From NCBI GenBank assembly GCA_902805635.1, contig CADCTC010000293.1, forward strand, positions 1-64,000: a DNA stretch of 64,000 nucleotides, in the 5' to 3' direction. The notes beneath the pieces were generated by a model. That model did no database searches. It was not told the DNA's origin and saw only the letters and a list, made by a program, of their open reading frames with translations. The translations under genes and the position numbers were made by a program. This stretch comes from an uncultured Chloroflexota bacterium (lineage in GTDB: Bacteria; Chloroflexota; UBA11872; UBA12225). This document shows, piece after piece, positions 3,920 through 28,208 of the stretch. Numbering within the stretch: position 1 is the first letter of the stretch; each line of letters begins with the position of its first letter.

Positions 3920-4786
3920 TTAGCTCTCCGGCGCCAGCGGCAGGCGCAGCGCCAGGCGCACGCCCTGACCGGTTTCTGGCACCGGGCTCTCCACCACCAC
4001 GCTGCCGCCGTGCGCCTCCGCCACGCCACGCAAGATGTATAGGTCCGCGCGCGCCAGCCGGCGCTCGGCGGTCAAGCTGGGGTCCTCCAGCAGCTGGTCG
4101 AAGAGCCGAGCGCGCTCCAGTGGCGCTAATGGGTCGCCTCGATCCTCTACCACGAGCGCCGCCTGTTCACCCTCACGACTCAGGCGGCACACCACCGCCA
4201 CCGAGGGATCGGTGCGGTAGGCGAAGAAATCTAAGAGTACGCGCGCCATCTGCGGCACACGCTTGGCGTCGGCGGTCGCGTAAAGCGACGGTGTTTCCAG
4301 CTCCAGCGCCGGCGGAAGTCGCTCTGCCCGCCATGCGCCGAGCGCGACGCGTAGCGCGGACGCCAGGTCCACTCGCGTCGGGATCAGTGCGATGCGCTGC
4401 AGCCGCACGCGCGAAATATCCAGGAGCACGTTTGTCATGGCGGAAAGCCGATCAGACTGCTCAATAATCGTCTGCAACCCCGACGCAATCGCGCCGTCGA
4501 CAGCCACTGTCCCGGTCCGGTTGCGCTGCATCAGCTGCGCGTAGCCGCGGATTGAGGTCAGCGGCGTGCGCAGGTCGTGCGCCAGCAGCGAGATGAACTC
4601 GTCCAGCTCGTGCTGCTCGTCGCGGCAGCGTGCCAGCGTCTCTTGCAGCGCAGCGAGCTCGCGCCGCAGCGAGGCGGCGTCCGCCTCACTGCCGCCTTCT
4701 CCGTCTCCACTCTGGGCCGTCACGTCGGCCCAAAGGAGCAGCACGCCGCGTGCCACGCCGCCGCGCGGAACGCCGCCTACAAGCAC
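3920..4786 (-). CDS. HisKA-type sensor kinase with degenerate ATP-binding domain
   Basis: The open frame extends upstream, but a GTG at 4786 (GAGG 4 bases upstream) gives 288 residues and avoids running into the divergent gene. The N-terminus (VLVGG to LLLWADVT) resembles only the last strands of a PAS domain. The dimerisation domain has a proper H-box (LLAHDLRTPLTSI). The catalytic domain is degenerate: VLLDFFAYRTD replaces the N-box and lacks the Asn, EDRGDPL lacks the second Gly of G1, and RADLYILRGVAEAHGG has lost the glycine-rich G2. It may not bind ATP and could act as a phosphatase or scaffold. No response regulator is adjacent. Confidence 0.78.
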   Translation of the reverse strand: MLVGGVPRGGVARGVLLLWADVTAQSGDGEGGSEADAASLRRELAALQETLARCRDEQHELDEFISLLAHDLRTPLTSIRGYAQLMQRNRTGTVAVDGAIASGLQTIIEQSDRLSAMTNVLLDISRVRLQRIALIPTRVDLASALRVALGAWRAERLPPALELETPSLYATADAKRVPQMARVLLDFFAYRTDPSVAVVCRLSREGEQAALVVEDRGDPLAPLERARLFDQLLEDPSLTAERRLARADLYILRGVAEAHGGSVVVESPVPETGQGVRLALRLPLAPES

Positions 4787-4835
4787 CGGCCTCGCAAGCG
4801 GTATCCTGAGAGGCGAAGAAGTACAGGGAAGCACC

Positions 4836-5381
4836 ATGAGCAATACGGCTGCGCCGCCGGCCAACGCGGCAATTTCCATCAGGACGACGCTGGCCAACTC
4901 CAAGTGGTTGGGCAAGCCATCTCCCAAGTCGGGCAAAGAGATCGCCCTGGGCGACCAGGTGGTGCTGTGTCCCAAGTGCTACACGCCACACCTGCTGGCC
5001 GATTGGCGTGAGAACGACAACAAGTGCGCGGTAGACGGCACGCCCGCGCGAGTAATCGAGCGTGCGGCGCGCGCCACGGGCGACGCCGCTCCCGCCGCAG
5101 CAGCCGCTGCCCCGGCGACATCAGCCGCTCCCGCGGCGGCCGCGGCGCCGGCCCGACCAGCCGCGGCCGCCGCTGCTCCAGCCGCAGCCGGGAGCGCACC
5201 GGCGGTGCAGGCAGCCAGCGTCGTCGTCGATCCTTACCGGTTCGCGCGCGTGGTGGAGGCGACGCCGGTTTCAGAAGTTTGGCGGCGCAATATCATGACG
5301 GTGTTCTGGATTCTGGTGATCTGGGCCGTCTTTGTCACCATCATCTACCTGGCCGAACTGGGGCCTGGCGCCCGCATCTAG
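4836..5381 (+). CDS. Half-RING, tail-anchored membrane protein
   Basis: 181 residues from the ATG after CAGGGAAG. Residues about 40-70 hold LCPKCYTPHLLADWREND followed by NKC, resembling the second half of bacterial RING-like zinc fingers (CxxC, PH, W, EN, C); the first Cys pair normally present upstream is absent. Then comes a long Ala/Pro linker and one membrane helix close to the C-terminus (IMTVFWILVIWAVFVTIIYL), so the zinc module is probably cytosolic on a tail anchor. It is divergent from the degenerate kinase gene with a 49-bp gap, so shared control is possible. Zinc binding is inferred and function is unknown. Confidence 0.72.
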   Translation: MSNTAAPPANAAISIRTTLANSKWLGKPSPKSGKEIALGDQVVLCPKCYTPHLLADWRENDNKCAVDGTPARVIERAARATGDAAPAAAAAAPATSAAPAAAAAPARPAAAAAAPAAAGSAPAVQAASVVVDPYRFARVVEATPVSEVWRRNIMTVFWILVIWAVFVTIIYLAELGPGARI

Positions 5382-5430
5382 GCCGCGCTGCGCCTCTGCC
5401 GCGTCGGCGTCTGGTGCATGCGCAAATAGT

Positions 5431-5461
5431 AAAGGGCCAGGCGCGATGCGCCTGGCCCTTT
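5431..5461. terminator. Bidirectional hairpin terminator
   Basis: Perfect 14-bp stem (arms 5431-5444 and 5448-5461) with a 3-nt loop. Each strand begins AAA and ends TTT. It sits between the convergent RING-like gene and groEL, so it can serve both. Confidence 0.85.
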
Positions 5462-5490
5462 GCGAGCAGTGTGCTTAAGCGTCACCTCGT

Positions 5491-5530
5491 CCGTTCGCCC
5501 TGAGCCTGTCGAAGGGCTCACGACGAACGG
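5491..5530. repeat. REP-like palindromic repeat, second copy
   Basis: Outer arms CCGTTCG and CGAACGG with an inner TGAGCC/GGCTCA pairing. It shares the CTGAGCCTGTCGAA core with the copy at 3850-3916. It lies between the terminator and the groEL stop codon. Confidence 0.75.
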
Positions 5531-5548
5531 GTCAGGGCAACCGCCTCT

Positions 5549-7174
<1,626 letters not shown>

Positions 7175-7313
7175 TGTGTACCTCCTGCTTTCCTGCATTG
7201 CTCGCTGATGCGAGCTCTATGCTGTGTGTCTTGCCGCGGGGATTTGATTGCCCCCTGCGTGCTCAGCCCGCGCCACGAGACAGGTGCCTTCCGGCTTGTG
7301 CCAACGCCCCGGA

Positions 7314-23681: not shown

Positions 23682-23689
23682 AAGGACAC

Positions 23690-23717
23690 AAACGGGCGAC
23701 GTGACCGCCGCCCGTTT
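23690..23717. terminator. Hairpin between convergent genes
   Basis: AAACGGGCG (23690-23698) pairs with CGCCCGTTT (23709-23717) around a 10-nt loop. The arms end in AAA and TTT, so it may work in both directions. Confidence 0.75.
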
Positions 23718-23734
23718 CCGAATTGCTGTGGCCG

Positions 23735-24250
23735 TTAGTTGCCCCCACCCGCCGCGACGAGGTTGCCGGCTCCGGCCGCCACGATGGCATTGCACCGGTC
23801 AGCGCTGAGCCCTGCAGCCAGCTGGCTGAGCTGTGCGCTCGTCATACCCGAGCGAACGAAGCCGCCGCCGTTGTCGGAGATAAAGTTGCCGCCGTTGGTG
23901 GAAATGAAACCGCTACCGTTGTCCGAATTGATGGCAGCGCTGTTTTGGGAGATTAGCGCAATCGGAACGACGACCAAACCGCTGGCGCCGGTGGAAACGC
24001 CGGCGCCGTTCTCGCTAATCGCAGCGCCGCCGTTGTGGCTGATGACCGCTGCGCCGTTATGGCTGAGCACGCCGGCGCCGGCATTCCCGACGATGTTGCC
24101 CCCGTTGTTGACCAGGATGCCGGCGCCGGCATTCCCGACGATTCCGACGCTGTTATTCCCAACGATGCCCGCGCCAGCGTTGCCGACAATCGTTGCGCCA
24201 TCGGCGCCGATCGGCGTTCCGCCGCCTTGTGCCACTCCCCTGGTGCGCAT
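23735..24250 (-). CDS. Octapeptide-repeat protein, predicted beta-solenoid
   Basis: About 171 residues from the ATG at 24250; the frame stays open upstream to 24343. Most of the protein is about a dozen consecutive eight-residue units of the form I-V-G-N-x-G-x-G, with aliphatic or Phe at position 1, Asn usually at 4 and Gly at 6. Examples are IVGNAGAG, VLSHNGAA, VISHNGGA, LISQNSAA, FISTNGGN and FISDNGGG. A helical break (TSAQLSQLAAGLSADRCNA) precedes two last units IVAAGAGN and LVAAGGGN. The regular hydrophobic/Asn/Gly spacing suggests a stacked solenoid. No signal peptide or anchor is seen. Function unknown. Confidence 0.7.
   Translation of the reverse strand: MRTRGVAQGGGTPIGADGATIVGNAGAGIVGNNSVGIVGNAGAGILVNNGGNIVGNAGAGVLSHNGAAVISHNGGAAISENGAGVSTGASGLVVVPIALISQNSAAINSDNGSGFISTNGGNFISDNGGGFVRSGMTSAQLSQLAAGLSADRCNAIVAAGAGNLVAAGGGN
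24071..24142. repeat. 24-nt exact direct repeat, 48-bp offset
   Basis: 24071-24094 and 24119-24142 are identical and lie two octad units apart inside the repeat gene. This points to recent duplication or gene conversion of two-unit blocks. Confidence 0.85.
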
Positions 24251-24305
24251 GTGGCGCCATCCGGGTGTCCGTCGGCGATTTGCACGTAACCAGACCGGCG
24301 ATCTG

Positions 24306-24782
24306 GTGGGGACAAGCATCACCGTGCCCGTCTGCCGCGACACGTTACCGCTCCTGATAAACGACCCGCTCTGTGCGCCGCTGCTGCGCGCCCTGTGGAC
24401 ACCCGAGCAGCTTGCTGCACTATCGGCGACCGTTGATGAGTCCGAGGTCTACTACGCCATCGCACTCGCGTATACGTCCTGGAACCCTGAAGCCACGCGC
24501 GCCGCGTTGATGCGCGACTGGTTCGGCCTCTACGCCCGCGGCGGTATGTACCTCTGCACCGTGTCTCTCCCCGGCTGGAGGCGCCTGCTGGAAGCGGCGG
24601 GTTTCCAGCGCGTGGAGAGCGCGCGCCCCGACCTCTGGGATCTAGATGGCGCCGGGTACGTGCTCGACCTGCGCCACCGTGGAGTAGACGGCTGGATCGA
24701 CTCGTTGATCGATAACGCCGGGGACGAGCTGCCGCCTCCGGCCAAAGTGGTAGCCGCTAGCGACCCGGACGCTGCCGCTTGA
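24306..24782 (+). CDS. Orphan ORF, possible fragment
   Basis: About 158 residues if started at GTG 24306; ATG 24249 and GTG 24324 are alternatives. The ATG at 24249 interlocks with the start codon of the divergent octad gene (CATG), leaving no room for promoters. The product has coding-like content (LLRALWTPEQLAALSATVDE, SWNPEATRAALMRDWFGLYA, WRRLLEAAGFQRVESARPDL, GYVLDLRHRGVDGW) but matches nothing I know. The missing Shine-Dalgarno and abrupt N-terminus suggest the remnant of a longer gene. It ends 88 bp before the MerR gene. Confidence 0.45.
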   Translation: MGTSITVPVCRDTLPLLINDPLCAPLLRALWTPEQLAALSATVDESEVYYAIALAYTSWNPEATRAALMRDWFGLYARGGMYLCTVSLPGWRRLLEAAGFQRVESARPDLWDLDGAGYVLDLRHRGVDGWIDSLIDNAGDELPPPAKVVAASDPDAAA

Positions 24783-24833
24783 GGGTAGTGGGTTGTCCTG
24801 GCGCCGTACCGTTCTGTCGCGGCGCGCCACCCC

Positions 24834-24864
24834 TTGACTCTCCAGTTGGTGGAGGGTCCATAGT
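24834..24864 (+). promoter_or_regulatory. MerR-type promoter with operator dyad
   Basis: TTGACT (24834-24839), an unusually long 19-bp spacer and CATAGT (24859-24864), the promoter geometry that MerR-family activators untwist. A dyad GACTCTCCA/TGGAGGGTC (24836-24858, 8 of 9 pairs) fills the spacer. The GTG at 24871 is 7 bases past the -10, so the mRNA is leaderless and the gene is probably autoregulated. Confidence 0.82.
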
Positions 24865-24870
24865 GTCCGT

Positions 24871-25680
24871 GTGACCGACCGGCACACCGAGGACAAGAGC
24901 CACGCGCAGGAGACCCTGTTCACCATCGGACAGCTCGCCCGCCGCACTGGGCTCTCCGTACGCACCATTCGGTTCTGGTCGGACTGCGGCATCCTGCCGC
25001 CGACCGACCGCACCGACGCCGGCTACCGCGTCTATGACGGGGAGGCGGTGGCGCGCCTGGAGCTGGTGCGCACGCTGCGCGAGCTGGGACTTGGCCTGGA
25101 CGCCGTCCAGCAAGTCCTGGCGCAGCAGGCCACGCTGCGCCAGGTGGCGCAGACCCACGTAGCCGCCCTGGACGCAGCGATCCGGACGCTGCGCCTCCAC
25201 CGGGCGGTGCTCCGCACGGTTGCCAAACGCAGCACCACCATAGAGGAGATCACGCTCATGAACAAACTTGCCCGGCTCTCCGCCCAGGAGCGCCAGCAGA
25301 TCATCGACGACTTCGTGGACCGCGCTTTTGCCGGCATCGACGCCGGTGCGCCTGGCGCCGGCATCGCGCAGGCAATGCGCCAGATGCCCGCCGATTTGCC
25401 CGACGACCCCACTCCGGAACAGGTGGACGCGTGGGTAGAGCTGGCCGAGCTCGTGCAGGACCCCAGCTTCCAGGAGCGCGTGCGCCTGATGGCCGTCACC
25501 GGCGCGCAGGGGGGCCAGCCGCAATCCGTGCCGGCGCCAAACCCGCAGCTCGTCTCCGAGCACGCCGGTGGAACGCTCGCGGCGGGCGTCCGTCCCGATT
25601 CGGCTGAAGGTAAGGCGGTGCTGGACCGCATGGTGCCGGCCGGCACGTCAAGTGAAGCCCGCACTCAGCTGCGCGAGTAG
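24871..25680 (+). CDS. MerR-family transcriptional regulator, truncated by an in-frame amber codon
   Basis: The N-terminal MerR domain is clear: FTIGQLARRTGLSVRTIRFW, YRVYDGEAVARLELVRTLRELG, then a long dimerisation helix. The C-terminal ligand or effector region is about 170 residues and unknown. The frame stops at TAG 25678, giving 269 residues, but the same frame continues for 43 coding-like codons (LETFTDARVERYWQLMG to TWLIQALRAHG) to a second TAG at 25810-25812. So this is either a truncated gene, a readthrough site or a sequencing error. The promoter has the MerR 19-bp spacer and a dyad, so autoregulation is likely. Confidence 0.88.
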   Translation: MTDRHTEDKSHAQETLFTIGQLARRTGLSVRTIRFWSDCGILPPTDRTDAGYRVYDGEAVARLELVRTLRELGLGLDAVQQVLAQQATLRQVAQTHVAALDAAIRTLRLHRAVLRTVAKRSTTIEEITLMNKLARLSAQERQQIIDDFVDRAFAGIDAGAPGAGIAQAMRQMPADLPDDPTPEQVDAWVELAELVQDPSFQERVRLMAVTGAQGGQPQSVPAPNPQLVSEHAGGTLAAGVRPDSAEGKAVLDRMVPAGTSSEARTQLRE

Positions 25681-25812
25681 CTAGAGACCTTCACCGACGC
25701 CCGCGTCGAGCGCTACTGGCAGCTGATGGGTACGCTCAGCGGTCGGCCGCCCTTCCCGTCCTTGAACCCCGCCTTCACCTGGCTCATTCAGGCGCTCCGA
25801 GCGCACGGGTAG
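25681..25812 (+). pseudogene. In-frame C-terminal remnant of the MerR gene
   Basis: 43 codons directly after the amber stop, same frame, protein-like (ERYWQLMGTLSGRPPFPSLN, AFTWLIQALRAHG) with no start codon or Shine-Dalgarno suited to separate translation. Intact relatives would be expected to be about 313 residues. Confidence 0.65.
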
Positions 25813-26178
25813 CGTCGCCCTTGCTGGTGCCCGCATCCCCGCGGGCACATTCCCCCTGCAAGCCCCTCCCGCTCGCTCGGCGTGGCTAATTGACCTGCCG
25901 GATTTTGCCTGCAGATTCGTCTTCAAAGTAGGGAAAGCATCGTAAGCACCGCATTTCGGCCGCCGCTCCACCCCAGGCGGCCGTCCCAGCTCGGAACCTT
26001 CGCTCGCTACCCGCACTTACGCATGCGTGTGGCAGGGGCAACAAAGGGCAACAAATGACAACAAAGCAGTGGCTCGGTGACCACTCGGGCCCGGAGTCAC
26101 AAAAAGTCACAACCGATCACAAGATCGGCGACCGCAAAAGCCAGGACGGCTACAAATCGCTACAACCGGCTACACATT
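25813..26178. other. 366-bp convergent intergenic region
   Basis: Between the end of the MerR frame and the end of the epimerase gene. I see no gene or clear terminator. Its right half holds the phased ACAA array described separately; the left half looks unstructured. Confidence 0.6.
26039..26176. repeat. Nine ACAA motifs in three 10-bp phased triplets
   Basis: CAACAAA occurs at 26039, 26049 and 26059. CACAA occurs at 26098, 26108 and 26118. CTACAA/CTACAC occurs at 26150, 26160 and 26170. Within each triplet the spacing is exactly 10 bp, one helical turn, while the base before the core changes between triplets (CA, CA, CTA). Most of the intervening bases differ. Confidence 0.8.
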
Positions 26179-27138
26179 TCACGCCGCTGCGTCTGCTTTG
26201 GGGGCGCCAAGCGGCCCATGCCACTCGCGCCACCACTGGTACGCCAGCGGTATGCCGCGCGACGCCGGGAACTTGGGGGCGTAGCCGAGTAGCGTGCGCG
26301 CCTTCGTCAGGTCTGCAACATACTTGCCGATCTCGCCGGTGCGCTTCTCGCCGATGGTGATCTTCGGCTCCACGCCCGCCGCCTGTGCCACCAGCAGCGC
26401 CGCCTCCAGCAGGGTGGTGCCCTCGCCGTACCCCAGGTTGATCGCGTGACCCGAGACCGACGCCGTCTGCGACACCAACTTCTGGATGCCCAGCACCACG
26501 CCGTCGATGGCGTCGTCGATGTACGTGAAGTCGTAGGTCTTGTCCCGGCCGAAGATCGTGATCGGCTCGCCACGCGGGATGCGGTCGCACAGTAGCGGCA
26601 CGAAGCGCCCGTTGCGCGCCAGGTCGTCGTACCGGCCGTACACGTTGCTGAAACGGAAGATGATGAACGGCACGCTGTAGCAGCGCTCGTAGGCGCGGAT
26701 CAGCGCTTCGTCCGCCAGCTTGGCTGCCGCGTACGGGCTGGCAGCCTCCTCGATGCGCACCGCGTCTTCGGGAACGGGGACGGTCTGCTGCTCGCCGTAG
26801 GTCTCGCGCGAGCTGCCGTAGATCACTGGCGTGCCCGTCGCGCGGCAGTATTCCAGCGTGTGGTGCGTGATCGTGTAGTTGTCCAGTGCGTTCGCGGGGT
26901 GCTCCACCGACTCGTGGACCTTCGCCCGCGCCGCCAGGTGGACCACCACGTCGCCACGCCCCCAGGCGGCCACGCGCGCCTCGTCGGCCTGGCGCAGGTC
27001 CTCCAGTCGCACCGGGACACGCTCCGTCCACGGGTTCGGGGACTTGTCGACGCCGAACACTTCGTGCCCCTCGTCGAGCAGGCGCAGCGCCAGGCTCGTG
27101 CCGATCAGTCCGCTCGCCCCGGTAATGATGACGCGCAT
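26179..27138 (-). CDS. NAD-dependent epimerase/dehydratase (extended SDR)
   Basis: 319 residues from ATG 27138, which has AGGAG 7 bases upstream; the frame is open 15 codons further. Rossmann motif GASGLIG at the N-terminus, active-site Ser region YGSSRETYG and YAAAKLADEAL (YxxxK). FSNVYGRYDDLARNGRFVPL and YIDDAIDGVVLGI fit nucleotide-sugar epimerases. Substrate (UDP-glucose, other NDP-sugar) is not determinable. It is divergent from a LysR gene across 173 bp, so it is a candidate target of that regulator. Confidence 0.9.
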   Translation of the reverse strand: MRVIITGASGLIGTSLALRLLDEGHEVFGVDKSPNPWTERVPVRLEDLRQADEARVAAWGRGDVVVHLAARAKVHESVEHPANALDNYTITHHTLEYCRATGTPVIYGSSRETYGEQQTVPVPEDAVRIEEAASPYAAAKLADEALIRAYERCYSVPFIIFRFSNVYGRYDDLARNGRFVPLLCDRIPRGEPITIFGRDKTYDFTYIDDAIDGVVLGIQKLVSQTASVSGHAINLGYGEGTTLLEAALLVAQAAGVEPKITIGEKRTGEIGKYVADLTKARTLLGYAPKFPASRGIPLAYQWWREWHGPLGAPKADAAA

Positions 27139-27208: not shown

Positions 27209-27286
27209 TCGGGGGTAAGGTCTAGCCGCCTGTCTCATCATCGCGCGTGGCGTTCGATAAGTCCAATAGAACTTCGCCGAAGGATT

Positions 27287-27303
27287 GATAGACAGCGGTT
27301 ATC
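27287..27303 (+). promoter_or_regulatory. Candidate LysR box
   Basis: GATA-N9-TATC (27287-27303), an interrupted dyad that contains the T-N11-A signature of LysR-family sites. A second T-N11-A occurs at 27258-27270. TATCAT at 27300-27305 could also be a -10 box, 12 bases before the ATG. Confidence 0.5.
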
Positions 27304-27311
27304 ATCGCACT

Positions 27312-28208
27312 ATGGACCTGGGGCAGTTGGAAGCATTTGTCGCGATCTGCCGCAGCGGTAGCTTTCACGCGGCGGCTCGAGCGCTGCACCTAAGCCAGCC
27401 GGCCATCACCTCACGCATCCGTGCTCTGGAGTACGCCGCCGGAGCGGACCTGCTAATCCGCAAGCGCGGCCACGTCGCTCCCACCGACGCCGGCCGCGCC
27501 CTGCTGCCCCACGCCCGGGCCGCACTCGACGCGGTCGCGGAGGCGCACCGTGCCGTCGGAGGCGCGCGTGAGTCGGGCACCGTCCGGCTGGCAGTTTCGG
27601 TGAACGCGGGCGCGTACCTGCTGCCCGAGTTGCTGCGCTCCTTCTGGGCACGCCATACGCTGATTGAAGTGGATGTGCGCGTTTGCCCCGCCGCCGAGGT
27701 GGCGTCGCGCGTGCTCGACGGCGAGGCGCAGATTGGCCTCACCCGCCCGGCGCCCGAGCAGTCCGGCCTTGTGCTGCATCGCTTCCCCGACGACCCTGTG
27801 CGACTCGTCGTCCCGCCGGACCATCCCTTCGCATCGCACCCATCGGTCACCAGTGCCGAGGTGGCGGCCGAGCAGCGCCTGATCGTGAGCTCGGATAAGG
27901 CTTACTGGGAAGACCTGCGCGCGCAGTTTGCCCGCGCCGGCGCCGCGGTACACCCTGTCCTGGACGCCGGCCTGCTGGAGGTGAGCAAGCAGCTCGTCAC
28001 GGCTGGCATTGGTGTCGCCTTCTTGCCCGAGCTGCTCGTCCGGGAGGAGCTGCGCACCGGCCGCCTGGTTGCCGTACCCGTGGCGGATCTGGAGCTCCCC
28101 GTCGTCTCCGCCGCCATCCTGCGTGCCGAGGGCCGCGATCTGCCGGCGCCCGCAGCGGCACTTTGGGAGGTGGCCACCGGCGACGAGGTCACCCTGCTGG
28201 TCGCTTAG
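27312..28208 (+). CDS. LysR-family transcriptional regulator
   Basis: 298 residues. N-terminal winged HTH MDLGQLEAFVAICRSGSFHAAARALHLSQPAITSRIR and a periplasmic-binding-like effector domain (SGTVRLAVSVNAGAYLLPEL, GIGVAFLPELLV). No Shine-Dalgarno precedes the ATG, and a possible -10 lies 12 bases upstream, so a leaderless mRNA is possible. It may control the divergent epimerase gene and itself. Its 3' end overlaps the end of the PEP carboxylase gene by 4 bp in convergent orientation. Effector unknown. Confidence 0.93.
   Translation: MDLGQLEAFVAICRSGSFHAAARALHLSQPAITSRIRALEYAAGADLLIRKRGHVAPTDAGRALLPHARAALDAVAEAHRAVGGARESGTVRLAVSVNAGAYLLPELLRSFWARHTLIEVDVRVCPAAEVASRVLDGEAQIGLTRPAPEQSGLVLHRFPDDPVRLVVPPDHPFASHPSVTSAEVAAEQRLIVSSDKAYWEDLRAQFARAGAAVHPVLDAGLLEVSKQLVTAGIGVAFLPELLVREELRTGRLVAVPVADLELPVVSAAILRAEGRDLPAPAAALWEVATGDEVTLLVA

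Follow-up and report, generated by a model that had tools for sequence, protein, structure and literature searches.

The closest described systems are ice-nucleation proteins and beta-solenoids. InaZ contains degenerate octapeptide repeats, and the ice-nucleation repeat has the consensus GSTxT(A/S) (PMC6400192). The window analysed here, a stretch of 64,000 nucleotides from an uncultured Chloroflexota bacterium, contains a minus-strand gene whose product resembles ice-nucleation proteins in its octapeptide period, its Gly-rich units and a proposed solenoid fold. Based on this period and a possible solenoid, one might take it for an ice-nucleation-type or antifreeze protein that orders water; an earlier note on this DNA had compared it with ice-nucleation-type repeats. 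We consider this role extremely improbable, and the kinship found no support. The protein lacks GSTxT(A/S) and any TxT motif, has only about 14 octads, far fewer than ice-nucleation proteins, carries no secretion signal, and has no Pfam match at E <= 1, Ice_nucleation (PF00818) included. Moreover, the octads of its relatives sit in lipoproteins, several of them with NHL propellers.

Organization of the octad gene

The octad gene (Table 1) begins with an ATG at 24250 and ends with a stop codon at 23735-23737; the ORF, its coordinates and the dozen or so units described in the earlier note are correct. Twelve clear octads lie in phase, eight in a first and four in a second block, and the 14-residue stretch between them is probably what is left of two octads that eroded and lost 2 of their 16 residues. 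Across a core of 110 residues, shifts of 8, 16 and 24 residues gave identities of up to 0.40, a value reached at no lag from 2 to 40 in any of 20,000 shuffles. The consensus of the window octads is h-h-S/G-x-N-G-G/A-G/N. Gly occupies position 6 in 10 of the 12 units, and Asn is found more often at position 5 (9/12) than at position 4 (5/12). The unit I-x-x-N-x-G proposed earlier thus describes the first five octads but not the whole set. A second flavour, IVAxGGGN, is present at the C-terminal end, where a profile made without window rows (A4) found its sole match (E 7e-4) among 400 genomes of the phylum, and the two degenerate N-terminal octads align with IVAQGGGN LVGASGAQ of the relatives. 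Two exact 24-nt duplications had been claimed; only one was found, with its copies 48 nt apart. DNA divergence between octad units is about 50%, yet the Ser, Asn and Gly positions are kept, and 172 codons stay open across at least 14 units with no frameshift.

Table 1. Features of the octad gene and its surroundings, in window positions.
Feature	Position	Strand	Basis or remark
Octad-repeat ORF, 171 aa + stop	23735..24250	-	ORF call; outside-profile match E 1e-16 (not literal, composition bias)
Two degenerate N-terminal octads, GVAQGGGT PIGADGAT	24191..24238	-	alignment A5
Block 1, eight octads: IVGNAGAG IVGNNSVG IVGNAGAG ILVNNGGN IVGNAGAG VLSHNGAA VISHNGGA AISENGAG	23999..24190	-	
14-residue interruption, VSTGASGLVVVPIA	23957..23998	-	between octad blocks
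Block 2, four octads: LISQNSAA INSDNGSG FISTNGGN FISDNGGG	23861..23956	-	
C-terminal second-flavour octads, IVAAGAGN LVAAGGGN	23738..23785	-	profile A4 match
Exact 24-nt duplication, copy 1	24119..24142	-	
Exact 24-nt duplication, copy 2	24071..24094	-	
orfX, divergent neighbour, putative gene	24252..24782	+	
MerR-family regulator	24871..25680	+	in-frame TAG at 25678
Extra segment (octad gene, orfX, MerR)	23682..26178	.	absent from same-family relative (L102)

A plus-strand ORF of 347 aa (23739-24782) overlaps the gene, is open across the repeat and runs on into orfX, and the minus frame might be nothing but its shadow. Several observations make this very improbable. For Ser at octad position 3, one block uses AGC but the other TCC or TCG, codons that are more than one step apart. 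A profile made from Sericytochromatia proteins only, with no window sequence, matched the whole octad frame at E 1e-16, a value that is not to be taken literally because of a large composition bias in the HMM score; the next match was a shuffled control (E 0.75), and the next real window frame followed at E 7.7. Finally, the octad proteins of Sericytochromatia read the minus-strand frame, behind lipobox signals. Because of the codon swap, the outside profile matching that frame alone and the relatives' reading behind signal peptides, the minus frame is, on sequence grounds, the coding frame of the repeat. It also keeps the octad motif; the earlier note had held that a frame without conservation would point to non-coding DNA or a chance repeat. 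Neither the octad frame nor any other minus frame upstream encodes a signal peptide, which confirms the absence noted before.

Distribution and relatives

The window protein has no match in Pfam (E <= 1), NCBIfam, PHROG or PDB sequences, which bears out the statement that its family could not be named, and no description of the octad repeat was found in the literature. The gene is single-copy in its own genome. The window protein itself matched none of 60 relatives, octad profile A1 none of 150 relatives, and profiles A3 and A4 each none of the 399 other genomes of the phylum. No homologue of the window protein was present in plasmids, phages or IMG/VR, where a relaxed DNA pattern matched only unrelated proteins and tandem repeats. 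A frame in locus L085 was rejected as an octad member, and an artificial mixed alignment (A2) was left out.

A DNA pattern for three consecutive octads was scanned through 84,980 species genomes and yielded 29 stretches, mostly in Cyanobacteria bacterium RYN_339 (G151), with one in Sericytochromatia S15B-MN24. The real range of the octads may be wider because such a strict pattern would miss other variants. The genome scan also pointed to Microbacterium, Novosphingobium, Dehalococcoidia SJ813, Chloroflexi casp150, Fibrobacter, a Clostridia bacterium, Synergistaceae and Cloacimonadota, but the reading frames there lack the octad consensus and these hits were taken as noise. When these eight genomes were rescanned with the profile, a match appeared in Synergistaceae only, to a simple tandem repeat (E 6.6e-5); this and a value of 8.9e-4, from tandem-repeat or short matches in two unrelated genomes, mark the noise level of the profile. 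The window gene is the only octad copy found outside Sericytochromatia.

Sericytochromatia are a non-photosynthetic relative of cyanobacteria. RYN_339, with 129 matching stretches in about 113 open frames, is putatively placed among them from the protein architecture that its octad proteins have in common with those of S15B-MN24, not from a taxonomy record. Two more genomes near RYN_339 (G404 and G409) have the same architecture, in which a lipobox signal is followed by a Pro/Ala-rich linker, the octads and an NHL propeller or other domains. Among 62 open frames counted, some of which are overlapping copies of the same gene, 54 have a lipobox ahead of the octads; the window frame is one of the eight that lack it. 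NHL propellers follow the octads in three of four relatives' proteins scanned. The octad segment of the relatives has no counterpart in Pfam, NCBIfam or the sequences of the PDB. In the 7-Mb genome of RYN_339 the octad-bearing open frames, more than 100 in number, make up a very large unnamed lipoprotein family.

The search among relatives that the earlier note had proposed thus led to proteins that do carry the repeats. The window protein fits their pattern, hh[SAG]x[NGD][GSA][GAS][GSNA] in units of eight residues, and its consensus agrees with that of 204 pooled relatives' octads at each of the eight positions. The two flavours, IISxNGGG and IVAxGGGN, are mixed within one protein in the window as in three relatives (L036, L028 and L045). 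By contrast, the Sericytochromatia lipoproteins are mostly 400-1100 aa long with lipobox, linker and C-terminal domains, whereas the window protein has 171 aa, lacks the lipobox signal peptide and ends in octads, with no NHL, other C-terminal or Pfam domain.

Short Gly-rich repeats can converge, and the octads could have arisen here by local 24-nt duplications, with no homology to those of Sericytochromatia. The exact 24-nt duplication is a recent local one, identity between the window protein and the relatives' octad segments is just 28-48%, and octads are absent from the rest of the phylum. However, it is two distinct flavours that the window and Sericytochromatia have in common, and the profile is specific, with none of 399 phylum genomes matched and, in 299 genomes around Novosphingobium, a single hit that was short and marginal. 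We hold convergence to be the less probable origin, though one that deserves attention.

Predicted fold

Structure prediction, as suggested in the earlier note, did not give a regular solenoid for the window protein. Modelled by AlphaFold together with 16 relatives, it was unstructured, with low confidence (pLDDT 57, pTM 0.27) and no strands; a disordered model was among the outcomes that the earlier note had named as refuting its reading. By contrast, the 218-residue octad region of the relative L036 was modelled with 19 strands, each 3-4 residues long and almost all at a spacing of 8 residues, which amounts to a regular array with one strand per octad (pLDDT 64, pTM 0.46). Foldseek matches of this model were mostly beta-solenoids, none significant (best E 0.28, low TM-scores). 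Nearly all of these weak matches belong to this general class, which takes in left-handed beta-helices of the LpxA/LpxD type, bactofilin and ice-binding proteins and whose repeat lengths and sequences differ from the octads. Based on the L036 model and these matches, long octad arrays are likely to form a beta-solenoid, so that the solenoid put forward earlier, though not its two octads per rung, gains indirect support from the relative but not from the window protein.

The module may be written as [ILV][IV][SG]x-N-G-[GA]-[GSN], with I-V-A-x-G-G-G-N as its second flavour. Each octad would contribute a single short strand; its aliphatic residues would pack in the interior, and the Asn-Gly turns would stack. 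Because the module sits between lipobox and linker on one side and NHL propellers or other domains on the other, the octads of Sericytochromatia are probably a solenoid spacer on the cell surface.

Genomic context

In a genome of the same family (G002) 97 bp lie between the genes for FAA hydrolase and NDP-sugar epimerase, against about 2.5 kb in the window. The order Fur-like, short ORF, QueG, PolB, FAA hydrolase, epimerase and PEP carboxylase is kept in G002. Judging from this common gene order, the contig is probably native to the lineage, and by the same comparison the octad gene lies inside a lineage-specific insertion of about 2.5 kb. Its divergent neighbour orfX has no relatives in Pfam, NCBIfam or PHROG, nor in any of the 40 further genomes that make up the class, and no promoter-like site was found for the octad gene.

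Other features of the region were recorded in passing. Beyond the TAG of the MerR gene, as assembled, the frame runs on for 43 codons (25678-25814), and the C-terminus so formed is plausibly MerR-like. Where the insertion borders on its surroundings (26040-26190), the non-coding DNA has clusters of three short repeats that end in ACAA. A LysR-type ORF (27285-28208) separates the epimerase gene from that for PEP carboxylase; it seems to be a further insertion because the corresponding interval in G002 measures only about 230 bp. In a further relative (L105, G004:C299:5000-12500; 4004-7228, minus strand) the family-B DNA polymerase has an in-frame interruption of about 1 kb. A weak match to Hint_2, falling just short of the Pfam cut-off (E 6e-6), suggests an intein that is absent from the PolB of the window.

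Origin and significance

The explanation we prefer, with confidence that is about evenly balanced, is that the octad gene, set within a lineage-specific insertion and possibly decaying, codes for a stand-alone version of an octapeptide-repeat module that is so far undescribed. The strandless model of the window protein, the pLDDT of 64 and pTM of 0.46 for L036 and the lack of significance of the Foldseek matches count against it, as do the capacity of short Gly-rich repeats to converge and the composition bias of the HMM match. The window copy would have retained octads of both flavours, with export signal and partner domains either lost or never there, and its product may be a small cytoplasmic solenoid protein or the relic of a larger octad protein. 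Gain of the gene by horizontal transfer would fit the distribution.

In a less probable reading the ORF no longer has a useful product. It would be a non-functional, decaying remnant from within the octads of a longer surface protein, either imported or left over. This reading agrees with the absence of a signal peptide from the upstream frames, of a partner domain and of a promoter-like site, with the eroded 14-residue stretch and the degenerate end octads, with the in-frame stop in the neighbouring MerR gene and the lack of relatives of orfX, and with the absence of the segment from the syntenic genome G002. However, the long open frame with no frameshift and the conservation of Ser, Asn and Gly positions despite the divergence of the DNA argue against a mere relic. 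It is tempting to speculate about the opposite case, a functional cytoplasmic stand-alone solenoid that is shared by transfer with the surface-protein system of Sericytochromatia and has found a new use, for example in an intracellular filament or scaffold, but to this we assign a rather low probability.

The window protein is a small target for structural work because the module occurs there without its usual anchor and head. The octad module lies outside Pfam, NCBIfam and PDB sequences, yet a single Sericytochromatia genome contains it in more than 100 open frames. With a name for it, a large share of the probable surface proteome of Sericytochromatia would become annotated.
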